Source: Sphingopyxis sp. H115 (lineage in GTDB: Bacteria > Pseudomonadota > Alphaproteobacteria > Sphingomonadales > Sphingomonadaceae). Taken from it: a DNA stretch of 64,000 nucleotides. The DNA lies in the NCBI RefSeq assembly GCF_001468465.1, contig NZ_LNSA01000011.1, positions 54,372-118,371 on the forward strand, read 5' to 3'. The notes beneath the pieces are model-generated. The model had not been told where the DNA came from. It ran no database searches and worked only from the letters and a program-made list of their open reading frames with translations. Position 1 is the stretch's first letter. Each line of letters starts with the position of its first letter. The position numbers were made by a program, and so were the translations under genes. This document shows positions 33,645-62,957 of this stretch, in pieces.

Positions 33645-33673
33645 CTATTGAAACTATACCGACCGGCTATTGG
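33645..33673 (+). promoter_or_regulatory. 29-bp LysR-type site (copy 1 of 4)
   Basis: Reads CTAT, TG, AAACTATA, nine bases, TATTGG. It contains a T-N11-A LysR box, and its TTGG end forms a likely -35, with a weak -10 near 33694. Upstream of the cytochrome P460 operon. Same motif and spacing as sites at 47632, 54239 and 62929. Confidence 0.7.
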
Positions 33674-33738
33674 ACATCTCTCCCACGATGCTGGATGATC
33701 AGATACCATATATTGATTTCAAGAAGAGGACGGGTGCC

Positions 33739-34422
33739 GTGACTCCAGTCTATAATCAATCGTTTTTGAGCGTCGCGAGTGCGGCTTTCCTGCTATCGAC
33801 ACTTTCGGCTTGCGGCGGCGCATCAGGGGAAGGCGAGAAATCCGACAGTGCGGAACCGCGAACGCAAGCGGCCGTCGCTCGCGACCCCAATTATCCCGAG
33901 ATCGATATCCCGCCCGTTTGGGATGCCAAAGGACAGCTGGTCCAACCAAAAGACTTTCGCGAGTTGGTCTTCCTCGGGGCGCCGCTGACACCGCACGGTC
34001 TTAACGGCGGGAAAGCGTCTTTTCCCGAGTTCCACAATGTCTACACGCAGCCAGCAGCCTTCAAGGCCTATCGGGCGACCGGCAAATGGCCTGAAGGCAC
34101 CATGATGATCAAGGAACTACAGCTCGTCAGTGATCCGAAAGGCGAATTTCCTGACGGATCAACGACGGCACCATCCGGGCGAGGATATTTTCCCGGTCCG
34201 CCCAATGGCCTCGACGTTTCAGTCAAGGACAGCAAACGGTTCGCCGATTCAAATGGCTGGGGCTATTTCAACTTCAATCATTCCGCTCCGCCCTATCTGG
34301 CCACGGCAGCGCTCAAATCCGTCGACGAATGCGCGGGGTGCCACATCGCCAATGCAGAAGACATGGTCTACATCAAATTCTACAAGCCCATACTCGATCC
34401 GCTACCGCTCCCCCGCGGTTGA
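33739..34422 (+). CDS. Cytochrome P460-family lipoprotein
   Basis: 227 residues from GTG 33739. ATG 33688 is in frame but would lie upstream of the expected transcription start if the LysR-type site is used. Lipoprotein signal with lipobox LSAC (STLSACGG). The P460 fold is indicated by FHNVYTQPAAFKAYRATGKWPEG and a C-terminal haem-c motif CAGCH. Characterised cytochromes P460 oxidise hydroxylamine and interact with NO through a Lys-crosslinked haem; the conserved Lys cannot be placed with certainty here. It is the first gene of a pair and faces the periplasm or outer leaflet. Confidence 0.8.
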   Translation: MTPVYNQSFLSVASAAFLLSTLSACGGASGEGEKSDSAEPRTQAAVARDPNYPEIDIPPVWDAKGQLVQPKDFRELVFLGAPLTPHGLNGGKASFPEFHNVYTQPAAFKAYRATGKWPEGTMMIKELQLVSDPKGEFPDGSTTAPSGRGYFPGPPNGLDVSVKDSKRFADSNGWGYFNFNHSAPPYLATAALKSVDECAGCHIANAEDMVYIKFYKPILDPLPLPRG

Positions 34423-34482
34423 CATGACGCTGCTGCAGCCATCGGCGTCTGCGGCGCGACAGGCGATGCAAGAGCAGCGGCC

Positions 34483-35472
34483 ATGCTCAGTGCTCATAGG
34501 AACGACGATTTGCTGACCGGGAAGACCATTGCGGTCATCTGCGCCGTCGCGCTGTTCACCACAGCCTGCGGCAAAAAGAGCGATGCGGGTGCGCCCGACG
34601 ATACTTACGCGTCGCTGGTCAACAAAGATGGGACGATCTCCTTTCCCGCAGACTTCCCCGAGAGTTACATGTTCATTGGCACCTGGTCGGTCACGGCGCC
34701 CTCGGGAGAGGCAGAAATTCATTCCGTCTATTCCCGACCGGCGGATGTTGACGCCTTTCGGAGCGCGGGGAAATTTCCTGACGGCGCAGTCTTGATCAAG
34801 GAAGTCACAATTGCGAAGAGCGCCGACCTCGTCACAGGCCGCGCATCCTGGGCCGGTGATCGCAAGATTTGGTTCCTCATGGTGAAGGATCGCAAGGGAC
34901 GGTTCGCGGGCAACCCCCTCTGGGGTGACGGGTGGGGCTGGGCGCAATTCGACCCGACCGACACCAAGAAGCAAACGGCGACGAATTACCAAACCGACTG
35001 CAAATCATGCCACATTCCGGCCAAGTCATCCGAATGGGTTTACACCTATGCCTACCCAGCGCTGGGTGAGAAAGGCCAAGTCGGCCTGCCGGTGAATTCA
35101 CATAGAGGTAACCCGCCCGGGATAGTTCCCGCCGTCGCAACGCAGGCCATGACGAGCGGCGTGGCTTCAGGCAAGATGGCTTTCGACAAGACTTGCAGGG
35201 CATGCCACTCCATAAACCCTGGTGGTGCCGGCATCGGACCAACGCTGGCTGGCGTCGTCGGCCGCAAGGCGGGCACCGTGCCAAACTTTGATTATTCGGA
35301 CCAGATACGGAATTCCGGCATAACCTGGACAGCCGACAATATTGACAAACATATCGAGGCGCCAAAATCCTTCATTCCCGGGAATCGCATGGGAAATCTC
35401 TTCCCCAACGGGATCAAGGATCCGGGTCAGCGCCGCGATATCATCGTCTATCTGAAAAGCGTCGCACAGTAG
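34483..35472 (+). CDS. Cytochrome P460-cytochrome c fusion lipoprotein
   Basis: 329 residues. Lipoprotein signal (TIAVICAVALFTTAC). P460-like domain (about 50-190; EIHSVYSRPADVDAFRSAGK, WGDGWGWAQFDP) with haem motif CKSCH. A class I cytochrome c domain (about 235-329) follows, with CRACH, GIGPTLAGVVGRKAG and the distal Met in FIPGNRMGN. The fusion gives the P460 centre its own electron exit. Start may be ATG 34483 or TTG 34510 (better ribosome site, AGGAACG). Same operon as the previous P460 gene. Confidence 0.85.
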   Translation: MLSAHRNDDLLTGKTIAVICAVALFTTACGKKSDAGAPDDTYASLVNKDGTISFPADFPESYMFIGTWSVTAPSGEAEIHSVYSRPADVDAFRSAGKFPDGAVLIKEVTIAKSADLVTGRASWAGDRKIWFLMVKDRKGRFAGNPLWGDGWGWAQFDPTDTKKQTATNYQTDCKSCHIPAKSSEWVYTYAYPALGEKGQVGLPVNSHRGNPPGIVPAVATQAMTSGVASGKMAFDKTCRACHSINPGGAGIGPTLAGVVGRKAGTVPNFDYSDQIRNSGITWTADNIDKHIEAPKSFIPGNRMGNLFPNGIKDPGQRRDIIVYLKSVAQ

Positions 35473-35631
35473 TCGACGGCGGCTTCCCGCTCGCGAGCGG
35501 CGGTAAGACGCATGAGCCACTGAAGGTGGCTAGTCAGATTGATGCTTGAGGCACAAAACAACTCAACGGACTATTCAGCCAAGGGCGATTTTTTGCCAAG
35601 GCCCGAATGTCCTCAATCAAAGGAATGACAC

Positions 35632-36024
35632 ATGGCCAAACGTGATGCGGTTTTCCCCGCAAACCGACATGCTCTCTACGAAGAGCATGGATATTCCGCA
35701 GCGATCCGGTCGGATCGTTTGCTTTTCGTATCCGGCCAGGTCGGAAGTCGTGAAGACGGTTCGCCGGAACCAGAGTTCGCGGAGCAGGTTCGGCTGGCCT
35801 TCGCAAATCTGGAAGCGACCCTGCTGGCTGCGGGATGCGGATTTGACGACATCGTCGATCTAACGACTTTCCATACCGATCCCGAAAATCAGTTCGAAAC
35901 GATTATGGCCGTGAAGAGCAAGATCTTCACTGAAGCGCCTTATCCGAACTGGACAGCACTTGGTGTGAACTGGCTGGCCGGATTCGATTTCGAGATCAAG
36001 GTAATCGCCCGCATTCCAGACTGA
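35632..36024 (+). CDS. Rid/YjgF-family protein lacking the catalytic Arg
   Basis: 130 residues with the YjgF/Rid fold (DRLLFVSGQVGSREDG, ANLEATLLAAGCGFDDIVDL, FEIKVIARIPD). RidA enzymes hydrolyse reactive enamines using an Arg in PAR-x-x-V. Here the segment reads PYPNWTALGV with no Arg, so it belongs to a Rid subgroup unlikely to be an imine deaminase. RidA of E. coli becomes a chaperone after chlorination, which suits the neighbourhood (inference). ATG 35632 follows AAAGGA. Confidence 0.85.
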   Translation: MAKRDAVFPANRHALYEEHGYSAAIRSDRLLFVSGQVGSREDGSPEPEFAEQVRLAFANLEATLLAAGCGFDDIVDLTTFHTDPENQFETIMAVKSKIFTEAPYPNWTALGVNWLAGFDFEIKVIARIPD

Positions 36025-36128
36025 CCGCAACCCGTGCTAGGCCAGTAAAATCCGAAACGAAAGAAAGTCGCGTCATCGCTGATTTCCTCGGAGCTGGCCT
36101 TTGGGGCCTGTTTACAGCCAGCGGCCTT

Positions 36129-36842: not shown

Positions 36843-36988
36843 TATGCGGGGCGGGCTTGAATAGCAGATCTTACTGCAGCTTCATCCTTAGGTCAGGCCA
36901 GTTGGAAATACATCGCCGGCAGCGTAACTCGCTACGATAACAGCCTCAGGTGACGGCCCTTGGACCGCTGTAATATTGGAGATGGAAA

Positions 36989-37900: not shown

Positions 37901-37937
37901 GCGCGAGCAACTCCGGGGCGGCTCACGGTAACGCGCA

Positions 37938-37969
37938 AACGGGCGCCCGCTGTTCGGCGGACGCCCGTT
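37938..37969. terminator. Bidirectional hairpin terminator
   Basis: 13-bp arms (AACGGGCGCCCGC and its complement with one mismatch), 6-nt loop, between the convergent CDF and glutaredoxin genes. It is followed by AGTTTC on the plus strand. Confidence 0.7.
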
Positions 37970-37973
37970 AGTT

Positions 37974-38249: not shown

Positions 38250-38262
38250 TTCATGTCTCCGA

Positions 38263-39224: not shown

Positions 39225-39320
39225 TCGATATCTCCTTTGTCTGACAGTTGCGGCACGTCTTTCCACCCCGGTGCGCCGCATGCGCGCCGGTGGAGACAGT
39301 CCCGAAATTCGAAATTTGGC

Positions 39321-39959: not shown

Positions 39960-39989
39960 TCGACTCTTCTGCATCGAAAATTGGGGAGG

Positions 39990-40366: not shown

Positions 40367-41272
40367 ATGGATCGACTTGCCGTCATGGAGCAGTTCCTCG
40401 CCGTGGCCGAGGCGGGTTCCTTTTCCGCGGCGGCGCGACGGCTCAATGTCGGTCAGCCATCGATTTCGAAAGCCGTGGCGCAGCTTGAGGCCTATCTCGG
40501 CGTCCGGCTGTTCCAGCGCTCAACCCGCAGCCTGACGCTCACCGAGGCGGGCCGTCGCTACCGCGACGGCGCCGAGCGTGCGATTGCAGCCGCCGCCGCC
40601 GCGGAGATTGCCGCCAAGGAAGACGGGGGCCGTCTCGCCGGACCGGTGCGCGTCGTGGTCCCGACTTGCCTTGCCCGGCTGCATCTCGTGCCGTGTCTCC
40701 GGGAATTCTCTGATCGCTTTCCCGAAGTCACGCTCGATCTGGAGATCACCGATCGCGAAACCGATGTCGTGGCATCGGGCGTGGATATCGCGCTGCGAAT
40801 TGGCACGCTCGCCGACACCGCGCTCGTCGCCTCTCGCATGGCGCGCACGCGGATGGCGCTGGTCGCGAACAAGGCCGAAAATGGTCTCGACGCCCCGCAC
40901 AATTTCATGGGGCAGCCCGCGATCATCTCGCGCCTTCATCATGCGAAGAATAGCTGGGTCTTCCGCGATGGCAGCGCGCGCATCGCGATCATGGTGCATC
41001 CTGCGCTCATTCTCGACAGCGACGACGCAGCCCGGTCGGCAGCGCTTGCCGGTCTCGGCTATGCGATGTTGCCCCGGCCCTTCGTCGCCGATCTGATCGA
41101 TACCGGCGATCTTGTCGAGTTGCTGCCCAACCATATGCTCGAAGACATTGATCTATGGGCCCTGCTGCCGGCTGGCCGCGACCAGACCGCGAGAGTGCGC
41201 GCTTTTCTCGACTGGCTCCGCCCGCAGATGAACGCGATCTTTGCCGATGAGCGACCCGGCTTGCTCTCATGA
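40367..41272 (+). CDS. LysR-type transcriptional regulator
   Basis: 301 residues. N-terminal winged helix (AVAEAGSFSAAARRLNVGQ, then SISKAVAQLEAYLGVRLFQR), substrate-binding domain with TDRETDVVASGVDIALRIG, typical of the CrgA/DmlR-like group that represses or activates an adjacent gene. Overlaps the YeeE/YedE gene by 4 bp, so they form one transcript. Divergent from the peroxiredoxin. Could sense a redox or sulfur signal (inference). Confidence 0.9.
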   Translation: MDRLAVMEQFLAVAEAGSFSAAARRLNVGQPSISKAVAQLEAYLGVRLFQRSTRSLTLTEAGRRYRDGAERAIAAAAAAEIAAKEDGGRLAGPVRVVVPTCLARLHLVPCLREFSDRFPEVTLDLEITDRETDVVASGVDIALRIGTLADTALVASRMARTRMALVANKAENGLDAPHNFMGQPAIISRLHHAKNSWVFRDGSARIAIMVHPALILDSDDAARSAALAGLGYAMLPRPFVADLIDTGDLVELLPNHMLEDIDLWALLPAGRDQTARVRAFLDWLRPQMNAIFADERPGLLS

Positions 41273-42249
41273 ACGCTATTGCGGTTGCCATCGCTGCTTC
41301 GATGCTGAGTTTTGCGATGGGTTTCGCGATCAGGCGGGGGACGGTCTGCGTGGTCGTTGCGGCGCAGGATCTTGTCGTGCGGCGCCGACCCGACAAGTTC
41401 ATCGGGTTCGCGACGGCGGCTTGCTGGTCAGGGCTTCTGCTTGTTCCACTGGCATGGACCGCACCAGCTGTTTTCCATCTGTCCCCGGGCTACGACCAGC
41501 TGATCCAGGCTTTCCTGTTCGGGTGTCTTTACGGGATCGGCGCGTGGGCGAACCAGGCTTGCGGCTTTGGAACACTCGCGCATTTGACCGGCGGCAGGCT
41601 CGGATATCTTCTGACCCTCGCCGGCTGGGTAATCGGCGCCTCGTTCATATCCAAAGTCTACAGGCCCCAGCAAATTCCCGAGCCCTCGCTGCTTGCGACG
41701 TCACCGCTCGCCGCGATAGCGGCGTGGCTGGCCTTCGCCGCAGTCTGCTGGTGGAGCTGGCCGCGCCTGCGACTGTTGCGCCGCCGGTCGCGCTGGCGCA
41801 AGATGCTGCTTGGACGCGCGCGGATGCGTCCCTTCGAGGCCATGCTCATCATCGGCATCGGCGGCGGCCTGCTGTACGCCTGCGCCGGGAGCTGGACCTA
41901 TCTGGGCCTCCTGTCCAGCTACGCCTCGCAGCTCGTCATGCACGATTTCGCCCCGATTTCTCCTTTGCCGGCGCTTTTGGGCACCGCGATGATGATCGGC
42001 GGCGGACTATTTGCAGCCGTCCGCTCCGCCAGCTTCCGGTTGCGCGGCACCAACTGGCGTCAAGGCTCGCGGCATCTCGTCGGCGGCACCATCATGGGGT
42101 TGGCCACCCAGCTCATCCCGGGCGGCAATGGGGTCATCATCGTCTACGGGCTGCCCTCCTTCGCTCCCCATGCCCTGACCGCCTATTTCGGGATGACATT
42201 GACCCTCATGCTCATCTTCGCCGCCACAAACTATTCCCGCAGGGCATAG
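41269..42249 (+). CDS. YeeE/YedE-family transporter
   Basis: 326 residues, about nine membrane helices. Conserved Cys motifs FAIRRGTVCVV (about 23-33) and NQACGFGTLAHLTGG (about 97-111), plus GGNGVIIVYGLPS, match YeeE/YedE (PF04143), whose characterised member YeeE takes up thiosulfate by Cys relay. Start overlaps the LysR stop (ATGA). Could bring in thiosulfate for cysteine and thiol synthesis under oxidant stress. Confidence 0.85.
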   Translation: MNAIAVAIAASMLSFAMGFAIRRGTVCVVVAAQDLVVRRRPDKFIGFATAACWSGLLLVPLAWTAPAVFHLSPGYDQLIQAFLFGCLYGIGAWANQACGFGTLAHLTGGRLGYLLTLAGWVIGASFISKVYRPQQIPEPSLLATSPLAAIAAWLAFAAVCWWSWPRLRLLRRRSRWRKMLLGRARMRPFEAMLIIGIGGGLLYACAGSWTYLGLLSSYASQLVMHDFAPISPLPALLGTAMMIGGGLFAAVRSASFRLRGTNWRQGSRHLVGGTIMGLATQLIPGGNGVIIVYGLPSFAPHALTAYFGMTLTLMLIFAATNYSRRA

Positions 42250-42275
42250 AAACCATGCCCACGGGCCAACTGTTT

Positions 42276-42330: not shown

Positions 42331-43755
42331 ATGACCGATTTCGACTATGACGTGGCGATAATCGGCGCGGGCACCGCTGGAATGTCGGCGTACCGGGAAG
42401 CGCTCAAATATAGCGATCGCGTCGTCATGATCGATGGCGGCCCCTTGGGGACCACATGCGCCCGCGTTGGCTGCATGCCCTCCAAATTGCTGATCGCTGC
42501 GGCAGAGGCGCGCCACCGTGCCGAAAGCGTCGGCCTGTTCGGACTTCGCGCCGGACCCGTCGAGGTCGATGGTGTGCAGGTCATGAACCGCGTCCGCGCC
42601 GAGCGCGACCACTTTGTTAGCTTCGCCACCGAGGCGATTGCGGGGTTTGCACCCGGAGGCCTGCTTCGCGAGCAGGCGCGTTTTGTCGATGACAATCGGC
42701 TCGAACTTGCGAGCGGCAAGCAGATCAGCGCGCGCAGCATCGTGATCGCAACGGGCTCGCGGCCGGTCGTACCCGCAGGCCTGGAACCGGCGGGCGATCG
42801 GCTGATTTTCAACGACCAACTGTTCGACTGGACCGATCTGCCGTCCTCGGTTGCAGTCTTCGGCACCGGCGCGATCGGGTTGGAGCTCGGGCAGGCTTTG
42901 CATCGCCTCGGTGTCCGCACCCATATCTATGGGCGCGGCGGCAGCGTCGGCCCGCTCACCGATCCCGACGTCGCGGCTTATGCGGCGGCACAGTTCTCGA
43001 GCGAAATTCCTATCGACTGGATGGCAGCCGATGCAAGCGTCGCGCGCGACGGGGACGCTGTGATCGTCCGGTCAGCGGGGGGCGAGGAGCGGTTCGATTA
43101 TCTCCTCGCGGCCGCAGGCCGACGGGCCAATGTCGACAATCTCGGACTGGAAAACACCTCGCTCACGCTCGATGCCCATGGCGTCCCCACTTATGATCAC
43201 CTGTCGATGCGCGCCAGTTACAGCGACATCTTCATCGCGGGCGACTCGGCGGTCGATCTCTCGCTCCTTCACGAGGCCGCGGACGAAGGCCGGGTGGCAG
43301 GCGAAAATGCCGCGCGCTATCCGCACAGCTATCGCCGCGCGCGCCGGACCCCGTTGACGATCGTCTTCACCGATCCCCAGATCGCCATCGCCGGGCGCAG
43401 CCATGCCGACCTTCTTCGCGACCGGATGGATTTCGCCATCGGCGAAGTGTCGTTCGAAGACCAGGGACGGGCTCGCATATTGGGGCTCAACCGGGGATTG
43501 CTGCGCGTCTATGGCGATCGGCCGAGCGGGTTGCTGCTTGGCGCCGAAATCTTCGGTCCAGCGGCGGAACATCTCGCTCATCTCCTCGCCTGGTCGATCG
43601 AGAGCCGGCTCACCGTCGCCGAATTGCTCGAACGACCCTTCTATCATCCTGTCATTGAGGAAGGGCTGCGCACCGCGCTTCGCCACCTCAACCACCATCT
43701 CGGGTTCGGACCGAATCCGCCGCTGCGCTGCATCGACTGTGGTCCGGGAGGCTAG
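42331..43755 (+). CDS. FAD-dependent pyridine-nucleotide disulfide oxidoreductase
   Basis: 474 residues. FAD site DVAIIGAGTAGMSAY, redox disulfide CARVGC (TTCARVGCMPSKLLI, about residues 43-48), NAD site AVFGTGAIGLELGQAL and second FAD motif SDIFIAGDSAV, as in dihydrolipoamide dehydrogenase, mercuric reductase and RclA. Near the C-terminus the usual HxxxxE pair (YHPVIEEGLR) is present, then an extra Cys pair CIDC close to the end. Given the RclC-like gene nearby, an RclA-like or low-molecular-weight disulfide reductase is likely; the substrate is unproven. Confidence 0.88.
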   Translation: MTDFDYDVAIIGAGTAGMSAYREALKYSDRVVMIDGGPLGTTCARVGCMPSKLLIAAAEARHRAESVGLFGLRAGPVEVDGVQVMNRVRAERDHFVSFATEAIAGFAPGGLLREQARFVDDNRLELASGKQISARSIVIATGSRPVVPAGLEPAGDRLIFNDQLFDWTDLPSSVAVFGTGAIGLELGQALHRLGVRTHIYGRGGSVGPLTDPDVAAYAAAQFSSEIPIDWMAADASVARDGDAVIVRSAGGEERFDYLLAAAGRRANVDNLGLENTSLTLDAHGVPTYDHLSMRASYSDIFIAGDSAVDLSLLHEAADEGRVAGENAARYPHSYRRARRTPLTIVFTDPQIAIAGRSHADLLRDRMDFAIGEVSFEDQGRARILGLNRGLLRVYGDRPSGLLLGAEIFGPAAEHLAHLLAWSIESRLTVAELLERPFYHPVIEEGLRTALRHLNHHLGFGPNPPLRCIDCGPGG

Positions 43756-44568: not shown

Positions 44569-45105
44569 TCAGTTTGTAATTCCGGGACCGACGATGTCGG
44601 TCGGACAGTTGGTGCACTTCTCTTCGTCGCAGAAACGGCAGGTCGTGCGCGCGCGCACTTCGTCGCGCGGCAATGACGCGAGGATGGTTTCCGCGACGCG
44701 CTCCAGCGCAGCGCGGTCCTTCTCGCCGACCGCAGCGAGCAACCCGGTGATCGCTGTGCTGCGCAGATTCAGGAGCGCCCTGCGTTCCGTCTCGCCGCCG
44801 GACGTCAACGACACGTGCATGACGCGGCGATCGCCGGGGGATTGCGATTTCGAGACGAAATTCTGAGCGACCAGCCGTTCGACCACGCGGGCAGCACCGG
44901 CATGCGACAGGCGCAGGGCCTTGCCGATCTGGTCGATCGAAAGGCCCGGTTCATGGCCGATGAGGCTCAATGCCGCCGCGGTCTCCCCGCCGGCCGGAAA
45001 GCGCTGTGATATCGCACCGCGCATCTCATCCGACACCCCCTGCGCGAGGGCGCCGAAGAGATTGATCAGCCGATCGGAAGGTGAAGCGTCCTTGGTCAAT
45101 CGCAT
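44569..45105 (-). CDS. MarR-family regulator with C-terminal Cys cluster
   Basis: 178 residues. Winged helix (about 55-115; LSIDQIGKALRLSHAGAARVVERL, SPGDRRVMHVSLT) and dimer helices at both ends. The C-terminus carries CRFC-DEEK-CTNC (about 159-169), four Cys in two CxxC pairs that could bind zinc or a cluster, or act as a thiol switch. MarR proteins such as OhrR and HypR sense organic peroxides or hypochlorite by Cys oxidation. Its own operator lies 8 bp before the start; it precedes the RclC-like gene. Confidence 0.88.
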   Translation of the reverse strand: MRLTKDASPSDRLINLFGALAQGVSDEMRGAISQRFPAGGETAAALSLIGHEPGLSIDQIGKALRLSHAGAARVVERLVAQNFVSKSQSPGDRRVMHVSLTSGGETERRALLNLRSTAITGLLAAVGEKDRAALERVAETILASLPRDEVRARTTCRFCDEEKCTNCPTDIVGPGITN

Positions 45106-45172: not shown

Positions 45173-46192
45173 TCAGAGCTTGAGCCTCTCCTTCATGGGC
45201 TCGCGATCCGTCTGTTCGATGGGGTACCAGCGGTAGCCGGATCCGTCGGCGGCAATGTGACCCACCCCCGGGAACGGAAGATGGGGCGCCGCAATCATCA
45301 TACGGTCGCGAGCGAAGCGGGTGAACGCGGCTTTCCGCACGGCGCGCGCCTCGTCCTAGCGAACATCGAAAGTGATCGTCACGTCGGGGCGTGGAAATTG
45401 AACCGCGCCGGCGTGGATGACATCGCCGACGAAGACGATACTCTGCCCCTTGCTGGTCAAGGTGTAGAAGGCGGTGCCCGGGGTGTGCCCAGGCTGCAGT
45501 TCGGCACGAATGCCCGGCACGACTTCGCCATCGGTATCGATCGGCTTCACCCGGCCGGCCGTGACATAGGGCGTCAGCGTCTGCTCGGTCTGGGTCCAGA
45601 AGCGCTTGTCGATCCCGCTTTTAGCCGCGTTGGCAACATCGGAGAAAAAGCGAATATCTGCACCGCCGGCATAGACCGTCGCGCGCGGGAAGACGATCTT
45701 GCCCGCCTTCGTGAGACCGCCGCTATGGTCGCTGTGGACATGGGTGATGAGTATGTCGGTGATTGTCTCCGGCGCGGCCCCAGCTGCTGCCAGCGCTTCG
45801 AGCAGCCTGCCGCCGTTGCCTAGGCCGAAAAGATCGCCGGCACCGACATCGACAAGGATCCGCCGCCCGTTGAAGTCGATCAGATAAGCGTTGATCGAAG
45901 CCTCTGCGGGATTAGCTAGGAAACTGCGGGCAAGAATTTCGTCGATCGTTTGCGCCGAGACGCCGCGCAGCAACTGGTGCAGGTCCAGCGGGACCGACCC
46001 ATCCGACAATGCCGTTATCTGGGCATCGCCAATCGTAAATCGATAAATTGCGGGAGCGGTCTGGCGGACGGTCCCGGCTATGGTGTCGGGCACCGCGGCG
46101 GGCGTCGGAGCCGCTAAACCGGGAGAAGAGGATATCGGGCCAAGCAGCGCCAGGGCGAGAGGGAGAATAGTGAATGGCTTTTTGATCATCAT
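45173..46192 (-). pseudogene. Metallo-beta-lactamase-fold hydrolase interrupted by an in-frame amber codon
   Basis: Frame of 339 codons plus stop, broken only by TAG at 45358-45356 (codon 279). Signal peptide (ending GLAAPT), metal motif THVHSDHSGGL and FVGDVIHAG lie before the stop. After it the same frame continues DEARAVRKAAFTRFARD and HLPFPGVGHIAADG, the conserved C-terminal segment carrying the last zinc-ligand His. The truncated 278-residue product would lack that ligand. Either a recent nonsense mutation (CAG to TAG is the simplest), a sequencing error, or amber readthrough. Last gene of the operon starting at 47445. Confidence 0.85.
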
Positions 46193-46797
46193 GGCGACGT
46201 CCTTGATTGAGTTGCGATGGATGAAGAACTGTCAGTCATTATCCCAGCGCTGGCGGGGTCTTGCGAGACATTGTCGCGATCGACAGCGTGCTCGGCGACA
46301 GAGTTCGGTTCAGGCAGGGCCACTTCCGAAAAATGCTGCCGAATATAGTCCAGCTTGGGATCGATGAAGCGGCGGCAGAAGGGTCGGCTCGGATCGGTTC
46401 GATAATAGTTCTGGTAACGCTCGTCCGAAGCCTTGAAGCTTCTGAACGGCAGAACCAGGGTATGCGCCGTATTGCCGAATTCCTCGGCAAATCGGACGAT
46501 CGCCAATTCGGCCTCATGCCGCTGGTTGTCATCGAAAATATAGATCGCGCTGCGGTACTTGTCGCTAGGAGAGCGGGCCCGGGTGGCTGAATGCGTTCTC
46601 AGATGCACCTCGCACAGCGTTGCCAACGGAATGATTGAAGGATCGAAGGTGACGATCACCCCTTCTGACCAGCTATCTGCCGGAGCGTCCGATTGGACAA
46701 AGCCCTGGTCGACCTGCGCAACGCCGCGCAGCGCCTGGAACACCCCTTCGGTGCACCAATGGCACCCCCCTCCAAAGCCGATCTTCGCCATCTTCAC
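46189..46797 (-). CDS. MsrA-like peptide methionine sulfoxide reductase (copy 2, divergent)
   Basis: 202 residues. The active site reads GGGCHWCTEG instead of GGCFWG, followed by GFVQSDAPADSWSEGV, YRSAIYIFDDNQ and RYQNYYRTDPSRPFC, which match a divergent MsrA branch with extra Cys residues. The last 40 residues are disordered and Ser-rich. No signal peptide. Overlaps the MBL-fold gene start by 4 bp. Part of the operon behind the 29-bp site at 47632. Confidence 0.82.
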   Translation of the reverse strand: MKMAKIGFGGGCHWCTEGVFQALRGVAQVDQGFVQSDAPADSWSEGVIVTFDPSIIPLATLCEVHLRTHSATRARSPSDKYRSAIYIFDDNQRHEAELAIVRFAEEFGNTAHTLVLPFRSFKASDERYQNYYRTDPSRPFCRRFIDPKLDYIRQHFSEVALPEPNSVAEHAVDRDNVSQDPASAGIMTDSSSSIATQSRTSP

Positions 46798-47631: not shown

Positions 47632-47660
47632 CCAATAGGCTGTGCCTATAGTTTTCATAG
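47632..47660 (-). promoter_or_regulatory. 29-bp LysR-type site (copy 2 of 4)
   Basis: On the minus strand: CTAT, GA, AAACTATA, nine bases, TATTGG. TTGGAA serves as -35 and GATAGT, 18 bp on, as -10. The whole promoter, about 85 bp, is closely similar to that at 62870-62957, including the -10 region. Drives the 47445 to 45173 operon. Confidence 0.78.
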
Positions 47661-47683: not shown

Positions 47684-48661
47684 TTATTGCGGCATCTCGA
47701 CATGCCCACCGAAGCCAAAGCGCATCGCCGAGAGAAGCTTGTCGCCAAAAGTGTGGTCGACGCGGCTGCGGTAGCGCGCAAACAAGGCGGCCGAAAGGAC
47801 ATAGGCCGGGACGGCTTCTTCCATTGCCGCATCGATCGTCCACCGGCCCTCGCCAGAGTCCGAGACCTGGCCGGTGAATTGCTCGAGCATCGGATCCCTG
47901 GCCAGGCCGATCGCGCAAAGGTCGAGCAGCCAGGACGAGATGACACTGCCGCGACGCCAGACTTCGGCCACGTCGGTCAGGTTGATGTCGAAGCGTTCAT
48001 CAGGCTCGAGCCGTTCGGAGGACTTGCCCTTGAGAATGTCGAAGCCCTCGGCATAGGCCTGCATCAGGCCATATTCGATTCCGTTGTGGACCATCTTGAC
48101 GAAATGCCCGGCGCCGGTTGGGCCGGCGTGGATATAGCCGCGCTCGGCGCGACTGTCGGGCGCGTCGCGTCCAATGGTGCGGACGATCGAACCATAGCCC
48201 GGCGCGAGCGTATCGAAGATGGGATCCAGCAGATCGACGATCTCCTTGTCGCCGCCGATCATCATGCAATAACCGCGTTCGAGCCCCCATATCCCGCCTG
48301 ATGTGCCAACATCGATATAATGGAGCCCCTTGTCCCTTGCCGCAGCACCACATTTGATGTCGTCTTTGTAGAAGCTGTTGCCGCCATCGATGATGATGTC
48401 GCCGGGCTCCGACAATTCCATCAGCTTGTCGACCGTGTCTTGGGTGGGAGCGCCCGCCGGGAGCATTACCCAGAAGATCCGCGGCGCAGTGAGTTTGGCG
48501 ACGACATCTTCAAGCGAATTCGCTCCGATGGCACCTTCACCGGCGAGCTGAGTAACCGCGGCCGGATCGCGATTGAAGGCGACGACCTCGTGGCCGCCGC
48601 GCATCAGCCGACGCGCGATATTGGCACCCATGCGGCCGAGGCCGATCATTGCAAGACGCAT
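47684..48661 (-). CDS. gnd: 6-phosphogluconate dehydrogenase, decarboxylating (short form)
   Basis: 325 residues. Dinucleotide site [20 protein letters not shown] (residues 5-24), [34 protein letters not shown] and substrate motif [19 protein letters not shown] identify the short GndA-type enzyme. Converts 6-phosphogluconate to ribulose 5-phosphate and CO2, generating NAD(P)H. In this island it could feed reducing power to thioredoxin and glutathione systems. The 259 bp upstream (48662-48920) hold no gene. Confidence 0.93.
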
Positions 48662-48920
48662 TGTTCAAATCCTTCTGTCAGAAGTTCACCCGGCGCGGAC
48701 AGTTCCGACCAACGCCCCGCCGTCACGATCCAACGAGACCGCACCGCTCGCTGGCAGGTTACCATGAGTATGCAAATTTCGCCGCGCCTTGGCACTGAAT
48801 GGAGGATGAGTTCATCGCCAGACGAAGTCCAATAACCAGGCGCTATAGTTTCGATACCCATTTAGCGACATGCGCAGTGCCGGGGCGGACATTGCGAACA
48901 GAGCAGCGACTGCGACACCC

Positions 48921-52703: not shown

Positions 52704-53450
52704 CTAACCACCATAGCGCTCGGTCTTGATTATCGAGGGGTCGACCCCGGCCAGCAGCGCGCCCTCGGTCGCAATGTTGACGAAATCGTTGGATCCGCAA
52801 ACGAATATCTGTGTGGGCTTTCGGTGAAGCCGGGCGAGAACCTCTTCGACCATGGCGCTGTCGATCCGCCGCCCGAAATCCGATGCGCGGATCGGATCTT
52901 CGCGCGTGATCGCCAGCGCCAGGACAAATGCGGCATCGTTGATCTCGACGGAATGTAGTTCTTCCGAAAACAGAACATCCTCAGCGGTGCGCGCGGACAG
53001 GAGCAACGCGGTTGGCACGGCCGGGTCTTGTGTGCGGCGATGCCGGATCATCGCCATCAACGGCACGAGCCCGGAGCCTGCTGCGATCAACAGCACCGCG
53101 TCTACGGCAGGTTCAGGCCATAGGAAGTGCCCGCCGAGCGGACCGCGAAGCTCGATCTCATCGCCGACTATCGCGATATCGTGAAAATAGGCCGACACCT
53201 CGCCATCGGGCAGGCGTTCGACAGCGAGCTCGATGATCGGGGACGAGGCTGCCGATGACGCGATCGAGTAACTGCGCATCGCGCTATAGCCATCAGGCGC
53301 GGTCAGCCGGACATCGACATGTTGGCCTGCGATGTGCGCGAACGGCCTGCTCAATCGGAGGAAGAAGCTTTTGATGCTCGGCGTCTGCTGGACGATTTCC
53401 TCGATCACGCATGATTGCCATGACGCGGTTTGCGTGCCGTTGTCAGTCAT
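52704..53450 (-). CDS. FNR-type flavin reductase, partner of the molybdenum oxidoreductase
   Basis: 248 residues from ATG 53450. FAD-binding barrel with MRSYSIASSA, NAD domain with AAGSGLVPLMAMIRH and FVCGSNDFV: the ferredoxin-NADP reductase superfamily, without an attached ferredoxin domain. The start overlaps the stop of the molybdopterin gene by 8 bp, so the two products probably act together, this one passing electrons from NAD(P)H. Confidence 0.87.
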   Translation of the reverse strand: MTDNGTQTASWQSCVIEEIVQQTPSIKSFFLRLSRPFAHIAGQHVDVRLTAPDGYSAMRSYSIASSAASSPIIELAVERLPDGEVSAYFHDIAIVGDEIELRGPLGGHFLWPEPAVDAVLLIAAGSGLVPLMAMIRHRRTQDPAVPTALLLSARTAEDVLFSEELHSVEINDAAFVLALAITREDPIRASDFGRRIDSAMVEEVLARLHRKPTQIFVCGSNDFVNIATEGALLAGVDPSIIKTERYGG

Positions 53451-54048
53451 CGGTGTATCGTTGCTCGCGCCACGGATCGCCGTAAATATGATAGCCGCGC
53501 AGCTCCCAGAAGCCGGCCTCGTCACGGGTTGTGAATTGCAGCGCCTTCACCCATTTGGCGGACTTCCAGAAGTACAGATGCGGAACCAGCAGACGCGCCG
53601 GCCCGCCATGATCGCGGGTAATCGGCTGGCCGGCAAATTTGAGAGCGACCATCGCTTTCCCGGACAGCAGGTCCGCCAGCGGGACGTTTGTCGAATAATC
53701 GTCGTAGGAATGCGCCAGGACGAAATCAGTGGGCCGGTCGAGCCCTGCATCCGCAAGGATGTCTTCAATGAGGACGCCCTCCCATATGGTATCCAGCTTG
53801 GACCAAGAGGTCACACAGTGAATATCCTTGGTCACCTTGGTCTTTGGCAGGGCGTTAAACTCGCTCCAGTTCCACACTTTGACCGGCTTCGGGCCGACTT
53901 TGACGGTGAATTTCCAATCAGCCAGCTCCACGTTCGGCGTCGGCCCCGCCGTGAGAACCGGAAAATTCTCCACGAGATGCTGACCCGGCGGAATCCGGCC
54001 GGACTGGTCGCCACTTGAACCGCGACCGGTGAAACCTCTGGTGACCAT
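53443..54048 (-). CDS. Sulfite-oxidase-fold molybdopterin oxidoreductase
   Basis: 201 residues from ATG 54048 (AAGGGGG upstream). Matches the small soluble sulfite-oxidase-like family: molybdenum-ligand Cys in DIHCVTSWSKLD (about residue 79), ITRDHGGPARLLVPHLYFWKSAKW and C-terminal GYHIYGDPWREQRY. No signal peptide or Tat motif, so cytosolic. By analogy with MsrP it could reduce sulfoxides, or another oxidised substrate. Together with the FNR gene it lies behind the 29-bp site at 54239. Confidence 0.88.
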   Translation of the reverse strand: MVTRGFTGRGSSGDQSGRIPPGQHLVENFPVLTAGPTPNVELADWKFTVKVGPKPVKVWNWSEFNALPKTKVTKDIHCVTSWSKLDTIWEGVLIEDILADAGLDRPTDFVLAHSYDDYSTNVPLADLLSGKAMVALKFAGQPITRDHGGPARLLVPHLYFWKSAKWVKALQFTTRDEAGFWELRGYHIYGDPWREQRYTDD

Positions 54049-54238
54049 AGTGCCCCCTTTTTGCTCGATGCGACAGACGATAACCGGCTTCACTTCAGAC
54101 CTGATACGCGTGGCCGCGGTACGAACCGATGGCTTGAAGCCTGAAACGCCCGATGCTTCATCGGATTTTCGATGATCGCATTTTCGTGAATCGGTGATTT
54201 GATGCTTATGGACTATAACGCGACGCCGGGCCGATTTC

Positions 54239-54267
54239 CCAATACCCTATCGCTATAGTTTTTATAG
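54239..54267 (-). promoter_or_regulatory. 29-bp LysR-type site (copy 3 of 4)
   Basis: On the minus strand: CTAT, AA, AAACTATA, nine bases, TATTGG, with a -10-like TATAGT downstream near 54212. Lies 190 bp before the molybdopterin oxidoreductase start. The surrounding gap 54049-54539 has no secure gene. Confidence 0.7.
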
Positions 54268-54551
54268 CTTTGAATAAATTACGCGCGCATCACGTCGGCT
54301 GCAGATTTAGGCACGGCATGAGGCTCGGTCCGCCTGCTTTCCAGGTTGGCTGCCGCGCCTCACAGCTTCGTAAGCGCCTCTCAGGGATAGAACGGCAACA
54401 AGGTATGGAAACTATGTTCCGCCGCTATTGGAAATAGTCGGTGCACATCTTCATAGTCCTGCGTGCGAAACCCTTGAACCCCGTGCGAATTTTCGAAGAA
54501 GTGGCGCTCTGATCGATCGAGACTTCGGGGCGCAGCAAGATGGAGACATTG

Positions 54552-55565
54552 ATGAAAGCCGTTGGTTACAAGGTCCCGGGACCCATCGCCGAGGATGCTG
54601 CGCTGGTCGACATCGAGCTGCCCCAGCCTGTCGCGGCAGGATATGATATCCTGGTTGAGGTGAAGGCCGTCTCGGTGAACCCGGTCGACTATAAGGTCCG
54701 CGGCAGCTCGCCGCCAGCCGATGGTGAATGGAAGGTGCTGGGGTGGGATGCGTCCGGGATCGTGCGCGAGGTCGGCCCCGACGTGACGCAGTTCCAGCCG
54801 GGCGACGAGGTCTATTATGCCGGATCGATTACCCGGCCCGGCACCAATGTCGAGTTCCATCTTGTCGACGCCCGGATCGTCGGTCGCAAACCCGCCTCGC
54901 TCGACTGGGCGGAAGCAGCAGCGCTGCCGCTAACGACGTTGACCGCCTGGGAGGCGATGTTCGATCGCCTCGACGTGGCGAAGCCAGTCCCCGGTGCGGC
55001 GCCGGCGATCCTCATCATCGGTGGCGCGGGTGGGGTCGGGTCGATCGCGATCCAGATCGCGCGCCAGCGCACAGACCTCACCGTCATCACCACCGCCTCC
55101 CGAGCGGAAACCCAGGAGTGGGTGAAGGAGCTTGGCGCGCACCATGTCATCGACCATAGGCGCCCGCTCGCGGCACAGATTGCCGAGCTTGGCATCGGCG
55201 CTCCCGCGTTCGTCTTTTCGACCACGCATACAGAGCAGCATGCCGCCGACATCGCCGAGCTGATCGCGCCGCAAGGGCGGTTCGCGCTGATCGACGATCC
55301 CACGGCATTCGACATCATGCTGTTCAAGCGCAAGGCGGTGTCGATACACCATGAGCTGATGTTCACCCGGTCGATCTACGGCACGCCCGATATGCATGAG
55401 CAGGGCAAGATCCTCGACGCGCTGGCCGTGCTGGTCGATGAGGGCAAAATCCGTACGACACTGACCGAGCGACTGTCGCCGATCAATGCTGCCAATCTGA
55501 AGACAGTGCACGCACTGATCGAAAGTGGCGCGGCGAAAGGCAAGACCGTCCTCGAAGGATTCTGA
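54552..55565 (+). CDS. Zinc-type alcohol dehydrogenase/quinone oxidoreductase family protein
   Basis: 337 residues from ATG 54552 (GGAGACATTG upstream; ATG 54540 also possible). MDR superfamily: KAVSVNPVDYKVRG, GWDASGIVREVG, and Rossmann motif IIGGAGGVGSIAIQIAR. No structural zinc cysteines, like ZADH1/YhdH-type quinone oxidoreductases. Reduces quinones or enones with NADPH, a common response to electrophiles and hypochlorite. Followed by a GlcG-type gene 54 bp downstream. Confidence 0.88.
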   Translation: MKAVGYKVPGPIAEDAALVDIELPQPVAAGYDILVEVKAVSVNPVDYKVRGSSPPADGEWKVLGWDASGIVREVGPDVTQFQPGDEVYYAGSITRPGTNVEFHLVDARIVGRKPASLDWAEAAALPLTTLTAWEAMFDRLDVAKPVPGAAPAILIIGGAGGVGSIAIQIARQRTDLTVITTASRAETQEWVKELGAHHVIDHRRPLAAQIAELGIGAPAFVFSTTHTEQHAADIAELIAPQGRFALIDDPTAFDIMLFKRKAVSIHHELMFTRSIYGTPDMHEQGKILDALAVLVDEGKIRTTLTERLSPINAANLKTVHALIESGAAKGKTVLEGF

Positions 55566-55618: not shown

Positions 55619-56050
55619 ATGACCAAGTCCATTGCCACTGCCTCGATCAACCGTGAAACCGCAGTCGCCCTCATCGACGCAGCGATAACCGCCGCCCGTG
55701 CAATCGGCATCCCGGCTGCCGTCGCCGTCGTCGACGCAACCGGGTATCTGCGGGCGTTCGAGCGCACCGACGACGCGCCGTTTCTCACCGTCGATGTTGC
55801 CATCGACAAAGCGTGGAGTTCCGCCTCCTTTGGATATCCGACCCATGTCTGGAACGACTATGTGAGCAACGATCCCAAAGTGGCGCCGCTGGCCTATCGC
55901 CCCCGGATGGTCGCCGTCGGTGGCGGCTATCCGATCCTTGAGGACGGAAAGCTGATCGGCGGAATCGGCATCTCCGGAGGCACTTATCAGCAGGACCAGG
56001 ATGCCTGCGTTGAGGCACTCCAGAAAATCGGGTTCGAACTGCCAGCCTGA
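55619..56050 (+). CDS. GlcG/HbpS-family protein
   Basis: 143 residues: ALIDAAITAARAIGIPAAVAVVD, DKAWSSASFGYPT and GGGYPILEDGKLIGGIGISGG are family signatures. HbpS binds haem and senses redox stress outside cells; GlcG homologues are cytosolic. No signal peptide here, so cytosolic. Follows the quinone oxidoreductase and likely shares its transcript. Confidence 0.85.
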   Translation: MTKSIATASINRETAVALIDAAITAARAIGIPAAVAVVDATGYLRAFERTDDAPFLTVDVAIDKAWSSASFGYPTHVWNDYVSNDPKVAPLAYRPRMVAVGGGYPILEDGKLIGGIGISGGTYQQDQDACVEALQKIGFELPA

Positions 56051-57284: not shown

Positions 57285-57287
57285 TCC

Positions 57288-58813: not shown

Positions 58814-58835
58814 CGCGCCTACTGCGACGGGCGTC

Positions 58836-59291: not shown

Positions 59292-59373
59292 CTCGTTGTG
59301 TTTGGATCATTCGAAAGTTCGTGCTTCGGTCCGTCACCGCCGCGGGAGTGCCCCCATTGGGCTCGCCGGCCCG

Positions 59374-59946: not shown

Positions 59947-60042
59947 TGTTGCACCTTGGCTTTGCATGGCATTGGACACGCTCTAATATCAGGGAGGCTG
60001 TTGCGGCTCAGCTGACGGAGATGAAAAGCAAACGCGCGCTAT

Positions 60043-61011
60043 TCATATCCACTTGGCCTTCTTGAACCGCACGAACAGGTACAGGCAGAACATCGTCATC
60101 AACCCGAGCACGACAAAATAGCCATAGACCGTGTCCAGCTCGGGCATGTTCCTGAAGTTCATGCCATATATCCCGGCGATGGCCGTCGGGACCGCCAATA
60201 TGGCGGCCCAGGCCGCGAGCTGGCGCGTGGTCACGCCCGTTCTTTGCGCTTCCAACAGGCTGCTGAACTCGAAGACGGTGGACAGAACCTGCAGGAGGCC
60301 ATCGACCATGGTCTGCACGCGAGCGACATGATCCGCGACGTCGCTGAAATAGGGTCTGACTTCTGAACTGATGCAGGGGAAATGGCCTCGGACGAGTTTC
60401 CGGACCAGTTCAGCCATAGCGCCGAGCGTGCGCTGGAAGCGCGTGAGTTCGCTTCTCAGCCCGAAGATGCGGTCGATTTCTGTCCGTCCGAGAAAGTCGT
60501 CGAGCGATCGTCTCTCCATCGCCAGAACGTCATCCTCGATCATCTCGAAGATGGGAAGATATTGATCGACGATCCGGTGCAGGATCGCATGCAGCACATA
60601 GTCGACACCTTTGCCAAAAAGCGCCGGCGAAGCCTCGAGTTGCTCGCGAAGATTGCCGAGCGCTCCGCCGTTGCCGTGCCGTACGCTGATGAGATGGTTG
60701 TGACCGGTGAAGATCGCCATCTTGCCGTAGCGGATCTGGTCTCCATCCAGCTCGGCGGTCTGAGCGACAACATAGAGCTCTTCATTATACGCTTCGAGCT
60801 TGGGCGGGCAGAGCGGGTGCATCGCGTTGTCGATTGCCAACGGATGGAGGTTATACGTCGTTTGGATCGCTTTAAGCTCGTCGGCGGTGGGCTCGCGAAG
60901 CGCGATCCAGCAAAAGCCGGAGCGATCCTTATCGAGCTGGACCTGCTCGTCGATCGCGATTTCGCGGACCCGCAGGCCCTTGTTGTAATAATAAGCAGCG
61001 ATGACGCTCAT
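60043..61011 (-). CDS. corA: CorA-family magnesium/divalent cation channel
   Basis: 322 residues from ATG 61011, overlapping the GST stop (ATGA). Long cytosolic N-domain (REPTADELKAIQTTYNLHPLAID) followed by two C-terminal helices and the GMN selectivity motif (IAGIYGMNFRNMPEL). Forms a pentameric channel for Mg2+ (or Co2+, Ni2+). Cotranscribed with the GST. Confidence 0.92.
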   Translation of the reverse strand: MSVIAAYYYNKGLRVREIAIDEQVQLDKDRSGFCWIALREPTADELKAIQTTYNLHPLAIDNAMHPLCPPKLEAYNEELYVVAQTAELDGDQIRYGKMAIFTGHNHLISVRHGNGGALGNLREQLEASPALFGKGVDYVLHAILHRIVDQYLPIFEMIEDDVLAMERRSLDDFLGRTEIDRIFGLRSELTRFQRTLGAMAELVRKLVRGHFPCISSEVRPYFSDVADHVARVQTMVDGLLQVLSTVFEFSSLLEAQRTGVTTRQLAAWAAILAVPTAIAGIYGMNFRNMPELDTVYGYFVVLGLMTMFCLYLFVRFKKAKWI

Positions 61012-61712
61012 GCCGGTCTCGCAGGGATGCGCAGGCCGCGCTGCACCGCGGGCCGCGCCAGCCCGCGGCGGAGCCATGTCTGGACGTTCGAATATTCGCC
61101 GAGGCCGAGGATGTCGCCGGCCGCGTAGACTTCGGCCAGTGCGTTGACCCACCCAAGTGTCGCAATGTCCGCGATCGAATAATCATCGACAAGCCATTCG
61201 CGGCCTTCGAGCTGGCGGTCCAGCACCCCCAAGAGACGCTTGGATTCATCGATAAAGCGCTGCCGAGGGCGCTTGTCCTCATAGTCCTTGCCGGCAAATT
61301 TCAGGAAAAAACCAAGCTGACCGAAGGTCGGCCCGACGCCGGATACTTGAAAGAATACCCAAGCCAGCGTCTCGTAACGCTGCGCGGGCGCACTCGAATT
61401 GAGCTGGCCGGTTTTGTCGGCCAGGTAGAGGAGGATCGCGCCCGATTCCCATATGGCGATAGGGTTGCCGTCAGGACCAGCCGGATCGATGATCGCCGGT
61501 ATGCGGCCGTTGGGGTTCAACGATACGAACGCTGGATCCTTCGACTCGTTGTTCGAGATATCGACCAGGTGGGGCTCGTACGCCAGGCCGGTCTCCTCGA
61601 GCATGATCGAGACCTTGACGCCATTGGGGGTGGGAGCGGCGTAGAGTTGCAGGCGATCGGGATGCAATGCGGGCCAGCGCTGCGTAATAGGAAAGGTCGA
61701 GAGGTCTGGCAT
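61008..61712 (-). CDS. Nu-class-like glutathione S-transferase
   Basis: 234 residues from ATG 61712. N-terminal thioredoxin-like domain (RLQLYAAPTPNGVKVSIMLEE, NPNGRIPAIIDPAG, ESGAILLYLADKTG) and helical C-domain. The TPNGVKV start and long N-terminus fit nu-class GSTs (YghU/YfcG), which have disulfide-reductase activity with glutathione. Cytosolic. Preceded by a hairpin that separates it from msrA. Confidence 0.87.
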   Translation of the reverse strand: MPDLSTFPITQRWPALHPDRLQLYAAPTPNGVKVSIMLEETGLAYEPHLVDISNNESKDPAFVSLNPNGRIPAIIDPAGPDGNPIAIWESGAILLYLADKTGQLNSSAPAQRYETLAWVFFQVSGVGPTFGQLGFFLKFAGKDYEDKRPRQRFIDESKRLLGVLDRQLEGREWLVDDYSIADIATLGWVNALAEVYAAGDILGLGEYSNVQTWLRRGLARPAVQRGLRIPARPA

Positions 61713-61778
61713 AAATCTGCGATCCTGTGCTGCGATGGCGACTATATGGACCGACCCGTCTCTCTGAAGCAGGGTTGG

Positions 61779-61807
61779 ATGACCGCGTCGTTGTACGACG
61801 CGGTCAT
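61779..61807. terminator. Hairpin with 13-bp arms between msrA and GST
   Basis: ATGACCGCGTCGT, TGT loop, exact complement. It lies downstream of msrA and upstream of the GST gene on the minus strand; no clear T-run, so it may be a terminator, attenuator or protein site. Confidence 0.5.
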
Positions 61808-61851
61808 GAAGATTGCGAACGGGATCGGCGGAGCGGCAACAGCAGTTAAGC

Positions 61852-62391
61852 CTATCCCGCTGCCGTCCCCGCCGCGGACTGATCATCATCAACTTTCTGG
61901 CGCTTTGGAAGCACCCAGCCGGGACGGACGAAATGGCAGGTGTAGCCGCCCGGGCGTTTCTCGAGATAATCCTGATGGTCCGGCTCGGCCTCCCAGAAAT
62001 CTCCGACCGGCACGACCTCTGTCACCACCTTGCCATCCCACAGTCCGGAGGCATCCACATCGGCGATCGTGTCCTCGGCGACGCGCTTCTGCTCCTCGTC
62101 GACATAATAGATGCCCGACCGGTAGGAGAGCCCGATATCACCGCCTTGGCGATTCTTGGTCGTCGGGTCGTGGATCTGGAAGAAATATTCCAGGATATTG
62201 CGGAAGGTCGTCACTGCCGGGTCGAAGATGATCTCGATCCCTTCGGCATGCGTGCCGTGATTGCGATAAGTGGCGTCCGGGACATCGCCGCCGGTGTAGC
62301 CGACACGGGTCGATACGATGCCGGGCTGCTTGCGGATCAGATCCTGCATGCCCCAGAAACATCCGCCGGCGAGAATAGCGCGCTGGTGCAT
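61852..62391 (-). CDS. msrA: Peptide methionine-S-sulfoxide reductase MsrA (copy 3)
   Basis: 179 residues from ATG 62391, one base after the msrB stop. [34 protein letters not shown] and [10 protein letters not shown] are MsrA signatures; more similar to copy 1 than to the copy at 46189. Cytosolic. Its operon lacks a glutaredoxin, but the GST follows. Confidence 0.95.
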
Positions 62392-62392
62392 G

Positions 62393-62836
62393 TCAGGCCT
62401 CCTCGACCTGATCGAGATATTCGCCATATCCTTCGCTCTCCATCTCGTCGCGCGGAATGAAGCGAAGCGACGCGGAGTTAATGCAGTAGCGCAAACCTCC
62501 GCGATCGGAGGGACCGTCCGGGAATACATGACCGAGATGACTGTCGGCGTGCACCGATCTGACTTCCGTCCGCACCATACCGTGCGCGCTGTCGCGCAAC
62601 TCGTTCACATTTGCTGCAACGATCGGCTTGGTGAAGCTGGGCCAGCCAGAACCCGAGTCGAATTTGTCGGTCGAGGCGAACAAAGGCTCTCCCGACACGA
62701 TATCGACGTAGATGCCTGGTTCCTTGTTGTCATCATACTCCCCCGTGAAGGGCCGCTCGGTGCCCGACTCCTGGGTGACGTAGCGCTGCTCGGCAGTAAG
62801 GAGATCAACAGCTTCCTGCGACTTTTCGAACTTCAT
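62393..62836 (-). CDS. msrB: Peptide methionine-R-sulfoxide reductase MsrB (copy 2)
   Basis: 147 residues; [16 protein letters not shown] and catalytic Cys in [11 protein letters not shown]. As in the first copy, the zinc CxxC pairs are replaced ([23 protein letters not shown]). Directly downstream of the 29-bp site at 62929, with a leader of roughly 60 nt. Confidence 0.95.
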
Positions 62837-62928
62837 GATAGTCTCCGATATTGATCTGAGAGGGCGAAAAAGCCGCCGCTTATCGTGTCAGTCACTGCGC
62901 CGACTATCGCAGTGCGCCTAGGATTTAT

Positions 62929-62957
62929 CCAATAGGCTGTGCCTATAGTTTCCATAG
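62929..62957 (-). promoter_or_regulatory. 29-bp LysR-type site (copy 4 of 4)
   Basis: On the minus strand: CTAT, GG, AAACTATA, nine bases, TATTGG, with TTGGAT as -35 and GATAGT as -10. Located between the LysR gene end and msrB. Near-identical to the promoter at 47590-47660. Confidence 0.8.

Follow-up and report, generated by a model that had tools for sequence, protein, structure and literature searches.

In the usual LysR layout, outlined in a passage of PMC12016517, a T-N11-A box lies near -65 and an activation site overlaps the -35 element. HypT, RclR and NemR are given in part of PMC7464077 as the Gram-negative regulators specific for hypochlorous acid (HOCl) identified by then, and were described in Escherichia coli. 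LsrB, treated in part of PMC13272141, is another LysR protein, in rhizobia. The gene cluster msrB-msrA-yfcG-corA is listed as a passenger of plasmids or insertion elements in passages of PMC9984417, PMC4785139 and PMC7096625. Here, a 64,000-nt stretch of the Sphingopyxis sp. H115 genome (contig NZ_LNSA01000011.1, positions 54,372 to 118,371; the window, numbered from 1) was analyzed, following an earlier note that had read from the letters alone four promoters sharing a 29-bp LysR-type site. Six such sites are present. They are probably (about 0.8) the operators of one mobile LysR regulon, in which the LysR protein encoded at 62981-63856 is predicted to bind each site and to switch on oxidant-defence genes. 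As a candidate LysR regulon, the system stands out because it is compact, covers several operons and occurs across bacterial classes. The sites and the proposed regulator are as follows.

62929-62957 (-): site 1, predicted operator of msrB-msrA-glutathione transferase (GST)-corA; exact, 50.4 bits with a weight matrix trained on outside sites
62927-62932 (-): -35 element TTGGAT of site 1; -10 GATAGT 18 bp on, at 62903-62908
54239-54267 (-): site 2, predicted operator of the molybdopterin oxidoreductase operon; exact; -10 TATAGT one base further than at the other sites
54403-54431 (+): site 3, predicted operator of divergent quinone reductase-like, HbpS, redoxin-like and major facilitator superfamily genes; exact to the trimmed pattern (below)
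48829-48857 (-): site 4, 5′ of 6-phosphogluconate dehydrogenase; exact to the trimmed pattern
47632-47660 (-): site 5, 5′ of MsrA-like and metallo-beta-lactamase-fold genes with an 834-bp leader; exact
33645-33673 (+): site 6, predicted operator of a P460 cytochrome pair; exact
62981-63856 (-): LysR-type protein, the proposed reader of all six sites, from Pfam matches, fold and site linkage; conserved start MELNQ at 63856, longest open reading frame (ORF) to 63949

The motif is real and stronger than first reported. The four sites claimed earlier (sites 1, 2, 5 and 6) are right in coordinates and strand, with 0 mismatches each to the pattern then proposed. The count of four was incomplete, as sites 3 and 4 had been missed; they differ from that full pattern by 2 mismatches and 1 mismatch, respectively. 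Shuffled sequence is expected to hold 0.01 matches to it with up to 3 mismatches allowed. A trimmed pattern, TATNNAAACTAT-N10-TATTGG, fits 6/6 sites exactly. The whole genome (4,493,891 bp) was scanned with the trimmed pattern at ≤2 mismatches, and the six sites of the cluster are the sole matches; a model with the base composition of the window expects, per genome, 0.00016 matches without mismatch, 0.0096 with one and 0.27 with two. A weight matrix was trained on 47 of 61 distinct sites, the 14 from Sphingopyxis and near relatives being dropped. It ranked the same six sites on top of the window at 41.9–50.4 bits, followed by a place at 11.1 bits; the best score in 20 random 64-kb sequences was 13.6 bits. 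The fixed orientation held for every site, each facing a gene on its own strand. Distances from site to chosen start are 65–167 bp for five sites and 834 bp for site 5. The next-best place in the window, 42244-42272 (+), was rejected as a further site, its score lying inside the random range. It is a degenerate motif copy just 5′ of a dihydrolipoyl dehydrogenase-like gene at 42331, and may be a decayed site.

Near the sites, the window encodes two LysR proteins and one MarR protein, and the earlier note had named both LysR proteins as candidate readers. The LysR at 62981-63856 scores above the Pfam cut-offs, with HTH_1 at 66.8 bits and LysR_substrate at 95.7 bits, and its structure model shows a full-length LysR fold with a predicted local distance difference test score (pLDDT) of 90; a first model (pLDDT 59) was poor and was not used. 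Public genomes were searched with this protein alone, giving 62 loci. A site with 0–1 mismatch lies ≤900 bp past the LysR stop codon in 59 of them, at 19–24 bp in 58 and at 562 bp in locus L110. The three exceptions have an interrupted site (L093), a contig end (L145), or a 28% Xanthomonas homologue that is no orthologue (L146). From 64 loci with a LysR match, 25 non-redundant spacers downstream of the gene were aligned without the motif, short spacers and those of L093 and L110 being left out. The motif and its -10 element form the only strongly conserved block, missing from one spacer (L187, a distant homologue).

The pair also persists at greater divergence, in all four LysR-site records examined at 43–63% LysR identity. 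The order LysR-site-msrB-msrA is kept, with the site at one mismatch, on Sinorhizobium meliloti pSymA and on Sinorhizobium medicae and Rhizobium sullae records (61–63% identity) and on Paracoccus versutus pTAV4 (43%). A relaxed pattern matches once in each of the S. meliloti, S. medicae and R. sullae records, which span 1.1 to 2.8 Mb, and twice on pTAV4. The 10 kb on each side of the pSymA site showed no counterpart of either the MarR or the other LysR of the window. The other LysR (40367-41272) was dropped as regulator because it has no match in the stretches examined around the sites of two diverged islands, 37 kb in G030 and 38 kb in G276, and only a weak one in G240 (32% identity, 47% coverage). 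In 44 genomes there were 148 site matches, 1 to 8 per genome, against 1 control match; this is a biased sample, as 42 of the 44 were chosen for the LysR gene and are 42 of the 62 loci. Alignment of 72 homologues with the LysR showed Cys172, Cys200 and Cys240 to be invariant.

Three loci carry variants of the arrangement. At L093 10880-10960, an unrelated insert, IS30-like by eye, splits the site between the LysR gene and the expected msrB; the LysR match is full length. In genome G078, an extra one-mismatch site (L036 14118, +) lies some 140 bp 5′ of the matched stretch of the LysR gene and points away from that gene. Paracoccus sp. S1E-3 has a second LysR homologue (L132 5977-6904, 47%) and a weak site (3 mismatches) before another msrB-msrA, possibly a paralogous system with a shifted operator.

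The consensus, CTAT-N7-ATAG-N7-CTAT-TGG, consists of three TAT/ATA elements in 11-bp phase, with outer bases differing among the six sites. The T-N11-A box noted earlier is complete in five of the six; site 3 has G for A. The placement of TTGG at -35 was supported: the third element CTAT runs into TTGG, and a -10-like hexamer comes 18 bp after TTGGAN or TTGGGA, or 19 bp in the promoter of the molybdopterin oxidoreductase. This hexamer is nATAGT in four sites, GATGAT in the P460 promoter and CATCCT in the 6-phosphogluconate dehydrogenase promoter. A logo was made from 61 distinct sites picked with ungapped flank identity ≤60%, after nine loci holding the isolated matches of G015, G369, G382 and G426 were removed. 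The box bases are T2 in 56/61 and A14 in 50/61; G0 (50/61) and G6 (48/61) are conserved, as are A51 (46/61), T52 (46/61) and T55 (42/61) of the -10. The -10 columns, G0, G6 and A14 are conserved although no search pattern required them. The dyad CTAT-N7-ATAG would be the LysR box of high affinity; with a transcription start 7 bases past the -10, its centre would fall at about -54. The third CTAT, overlapping the -35 TTGG, would be the activation half-site. The layout looks like a compact version of the usual LysR promoter. An AT-rich TATATAAAAATTATAG at 33621-33649, 24 bp 5′ of the P460 site, resembles the left half of the box and could be an extra half-site.

Compared with typical T-N11-A LysR regulators, the system shares a dyad 5′ of the -35, a half-site at the -35 and the LysR fold. 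It differs in that box and -35 are fused into 29 bp, with the dyad placed by inference near -54; the operator is repeated, and the regulator gene, 5′ of msrB, is co-directional with it instead of divergent. By sequence, the solved structure closest to the LysR is OxyR (4x6g, E 1.2e-15), which is also among the best Foldseek matches and shares CTAT/ATAG elements in 11-bp phase and oxidant-defence targets, including a Dps-like gene in one relative. However, the LysR at 62981-63856 scores 79.2 bits against a cut-off of 329 for the NCBIfam OxyR model NF008361. It lacks the OxyR pair Cys199/Cys208: Cys200 aligns one residue before the Cys199 position of 4x6g and a gap falls at Cys208. The OxyR consensus has four phased elements; here there are three, the outer bases vary, and targets are restricted to the island. 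As with HypT, RclR and NemR, the system comes with methionine sulfoxide reductases and an RclC-like (DUF417) gene; of these three regulators, described in E. coli, RclR is AraC-type. The passenger cluster msrB-msrA-yfcG-corA has the same gene order as behind site 1, a likeness by gene order alone. Its papers, in the passages on the cluster, mention no regulator or operator; LysR is absent from the main text of PMC4785139 and PMC7096625, and in PMC9984417 the passage with that word concerns ampR. The earlier description of the regulon as undescribed stands in part: no account of the regulator, site or regulon was found in the open-access literature, but the gene order of the msrB operon was already in print as a plasmid passenger.

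The genes behind the sites are as follows.

62393-62836 (-): msrB (Pfam SelR)
61852-62529 (-): msrA (Pfam PMSR); longest ORF, true start probably near 62391
61008-61892 (-): glutathione transferase-like disulfide-bond oxidoreductase (Pfam GST_N; NCBIfam PRK11752 below cut-off); longest ORF
60043-61152 (-): CorA-like metal transporter (Pfam CorA); longest ORF
53443-54093 (-): molybdopterin oxidoreductase, sulfite dehydrogenase/MsrP superfamily (Pfam Oxidored_molyb; below all NCBIfam cut-offs listed)
52704-53525 (-): FAD/NAD(P)-binding reductase (Pfam FAD_binding_6, NAD_binding_1)
54540-55565 (+): zinc-type dehydrogenase/quinone reductase-like, first gene behind site 3 (NCBIfam TIGR02817 above cut-off)
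55619-56050 (+): HbpS-like haem-degrading protein (Pfam HbpS-like)
47684-48661 (-): 6-phosphogluconate dehydrogenase (NCBIfam PRK09599 and TIGR00872 above cut-off)
46189-46797 (-): MsrA-like protein (Pfam PMSR; below NCBIfam msrA cut-off)
45356-46192 (-): metallo-beta-lactamase-fold hydrolase with signal-like N-terminus (Pfam Lactamase_B)
33739-34422 (+): cytochrome P460 with lipoprotein-like N-terminus (Pfam Cytochrome_P460); GTG start chosen, listed ORF from 33670
34483-35472 (+): cytochrome P460 fused to a cytochrome c domain (Pfam Cytochrome_P460 and Cytochrom_C)

Profile matches agree with the oxidant-defence role first read from these genes, with msrA, msrB, the MsrA-like protein, the molybdopterin oxidoreductase, the GST, HbpS and the P460 cytochromes all behind sites. 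The theme common to them, as predicted from their families, is repair and prevention of oxidative damage. The reductase at 52704-53525 is likely the electron donor of the molybdopterin oxidoreductase, and 6-phosphogluconate dehydrogenase is a possible source of NADPH. Other islands have ORFs resembling Dps-like ferritins behind sites whose continuation is like that of site 4. In one case (L009 1682-2191), Pfam confirms a ferritin-like gene after a site with a continuation resembling the 6-phosphogluconate dehydrogenase one. Near the sites in the window is the RclC-like DUF417 gene, which scores below the cut-off of that family. The MarR protein (44569-45105) has a cysteine-rich tail (CRFCDEEKCTNC), and its gene precedes and overlaps the RclC-like DUF417 ORF; it may be a separate, second redox switch of the island.

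In the proposed mechanism, the LysR at 62981-63856 would bind each site as a tetramer just 5′ of RNA polymerase, presumably as activator of the six promoters. An oxidant, once sensed, would lead it to turn on the genes for repair and detoxification that follow the sites. The signal is predicted to be an oxidant of thiols or methionine, of the hypochlorous acid or chloramine type, and sensing is predicted to involve cysteines of the effector domain. Hypochlorous-acid-type oxidants are the best guess for the inducer because of the RclC-like DUF417 gene nearby and the two msr pairs. A more specific proposal is tentative and rather doubtful: that the LysR is a new, OxyR-independent sensor of such oxidants through the lone cysteine next to the OxyR Cys199 position, and that the spread of the regulon on conjugative plasmids gives recipients ready-wired inducible tolerance of chlorine or neutrophil oxidants.

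Several observations weigh against one mobile regulon read by this LysR. The inducer is guessed from gene content, and the P460 cytochromes could equally point to nitrogen species. Genomes G057 (four sites) and G386 (one site) lack the LysR genome-wide at E 1e-30. Its loss from G057 was probably recent, since the island is cut just 5′ of msrB and the genes are 100% identical. G386 has no such excuse: a good site precedes msrB-msrA beside a DUF417 gene (L050/L063), and none of the six ORFs scanned, of 46 listed around the site, is a regulator. Autoregulation through the site is not seen: neither the 144 bp that the window has 5′ of the LysR gene nor the matching G032 island shows a site there. 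A 44–45% LysR homologue in G673 has neither site nor msrB within its 3.9-kb locus. Finally, whole-island transfer inflates the co-occurrence of LysR and site, including the count among 80 genomes of the genus, where the orthologue is found in 8, all with site clusters, a cluster occurs also in G057, and G015 has one isolated match.

The main rival to the LysR as reader is a second MarR, because it is present in 19 of 21 other loci tested (≥72% identity to that of pFBAOT6; several loci are copies of one island). The sites would then be operators of a co-travelling MarR, either this one, beyond the contig end in identical islands, or that at 44569-45105, repressing until oxidised. MarR proteins often sense oxidants, and homologues turn up also in island comparisons. 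However, the S. meliloti, S. medicae and R. sullae records, which keep LysR-site-msrB-msrA, give no match to the second MarR at E 1e-10, and the one on pTAV4 is a 31% match. A site 5′ of the -35 suits an activator and holds a T-N11-A box, and the LysR gene keeps its tight spacing to the site in 58/62 loci. MarR control is thus unlikely. Reading by the ordinary OxyR of the host, for which its place as closest solved relative by sequence and the elements in register with the OxyR consensus speak, is very unlikely: a host-wide regulator is a misfit for sites with no other place within 2 mismatches in 4.49 Mb, and the sites travel with their own LysR gene across classes.

The conserved block might also be a promoter of an extracytoplasmic function (ECF)-type sigma factor, with GAAAC as -35 and TATTGG as -10, since some ECF promoters look similar, pairing GAAAC with a TTGG-like element at a distance of about 15 bp. 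This reading is highly improbable. Such a promoter would not need the separate nATAGT -10-like element conserved 18–19 bp past TTGGAN, and no sigma factor was found among the part of the cluster ORFs scanned with Pfam. That the sites are copies of a mobile or repeated DNA element rather than operators would fit their position, all inside an apparent mobile island. It is scarcely credible given that the motif is unchanged in the 61 sites picked for differing flanks, that every window site faces a same-strand gene, and that conservation extends over the -35 and -10 positions. Operators of a LysR regulon remain the preferred reading of the sites.

The gene set appears from its distribution to be mobile, occurring in distantly related bacteria and often on predicted conjugative plasmids. 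The earlier note was incomplete in this respect too, the system being found across proteobacterial classes. The suggested scan of related sphingomonads gave matches at ≤1 mismatch in 8 of 397 family genomes: clusters in G000, G057, G240 and G276, the site in G386, and isolated matches in three more. Among 398 phylum genomes, an exact match occurred only in the window's own genome and at one isolated place. A class-wide LysR search (385 genomes) found one distant homologue besides the window. Isolated matches, at one mismatch in G015, G369, G382 (twice) and G426 and exact in G975, were set aside as fitting chance. Apart from the msrA-like ORF that contains the G369 match, their surroundings showed no gene of the cluster. 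A LysR 100% identical to the window's is found in G001, G031, G032 and G053 (Sphingopyxis-type genomes), and G031 has a second, diverged island in addition.

In a plasmid collection, the LysR is found at E 1e-60 or better in 222 records, of which 165 are predicted conjugative; the genera most often represented among the 222 are Citrobacter (62), Sinorhizobium (50), Klebsiella (38) and Enterobacter (27). Seven of the 222 were inspected for the site, and it follows the LysR gene in 7/7. The spacer between LysR and msrB of pFBAOT6 is matched by 158 records. On pFBAOT6 the set adjoins trbG, trbI and DUF2274 genes, homologues of which lie beside a further site in G028 and G078. A regulator and operator are hereby proposed for a gene set on many Citrobacter, Klebsiella and Enterobacter plasmids. 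The msrB-msrA-GST-corA part has gene-order counterparts beside resistance genes or in a resistance-plasmid backbone in passages of PMC9984417, PMC4785139 and PMC7096625. If the proposal is true, a single protein with a 29-bp site and a few promoters would make a compact, testable model of a stress regulon moving between classes with its wiring intact, and would possibly link conjugative plasmids to oxidant or disinfectant tolerance. In the window, genes for a tyrosine recombinase (11162-13159), a MobA/MobL-type relaxase and a TraI-like relaxase (20777-21421 and 23103-25151) lie 5′ of the cluster, which gives the region the look of an integrative mobilisable element.

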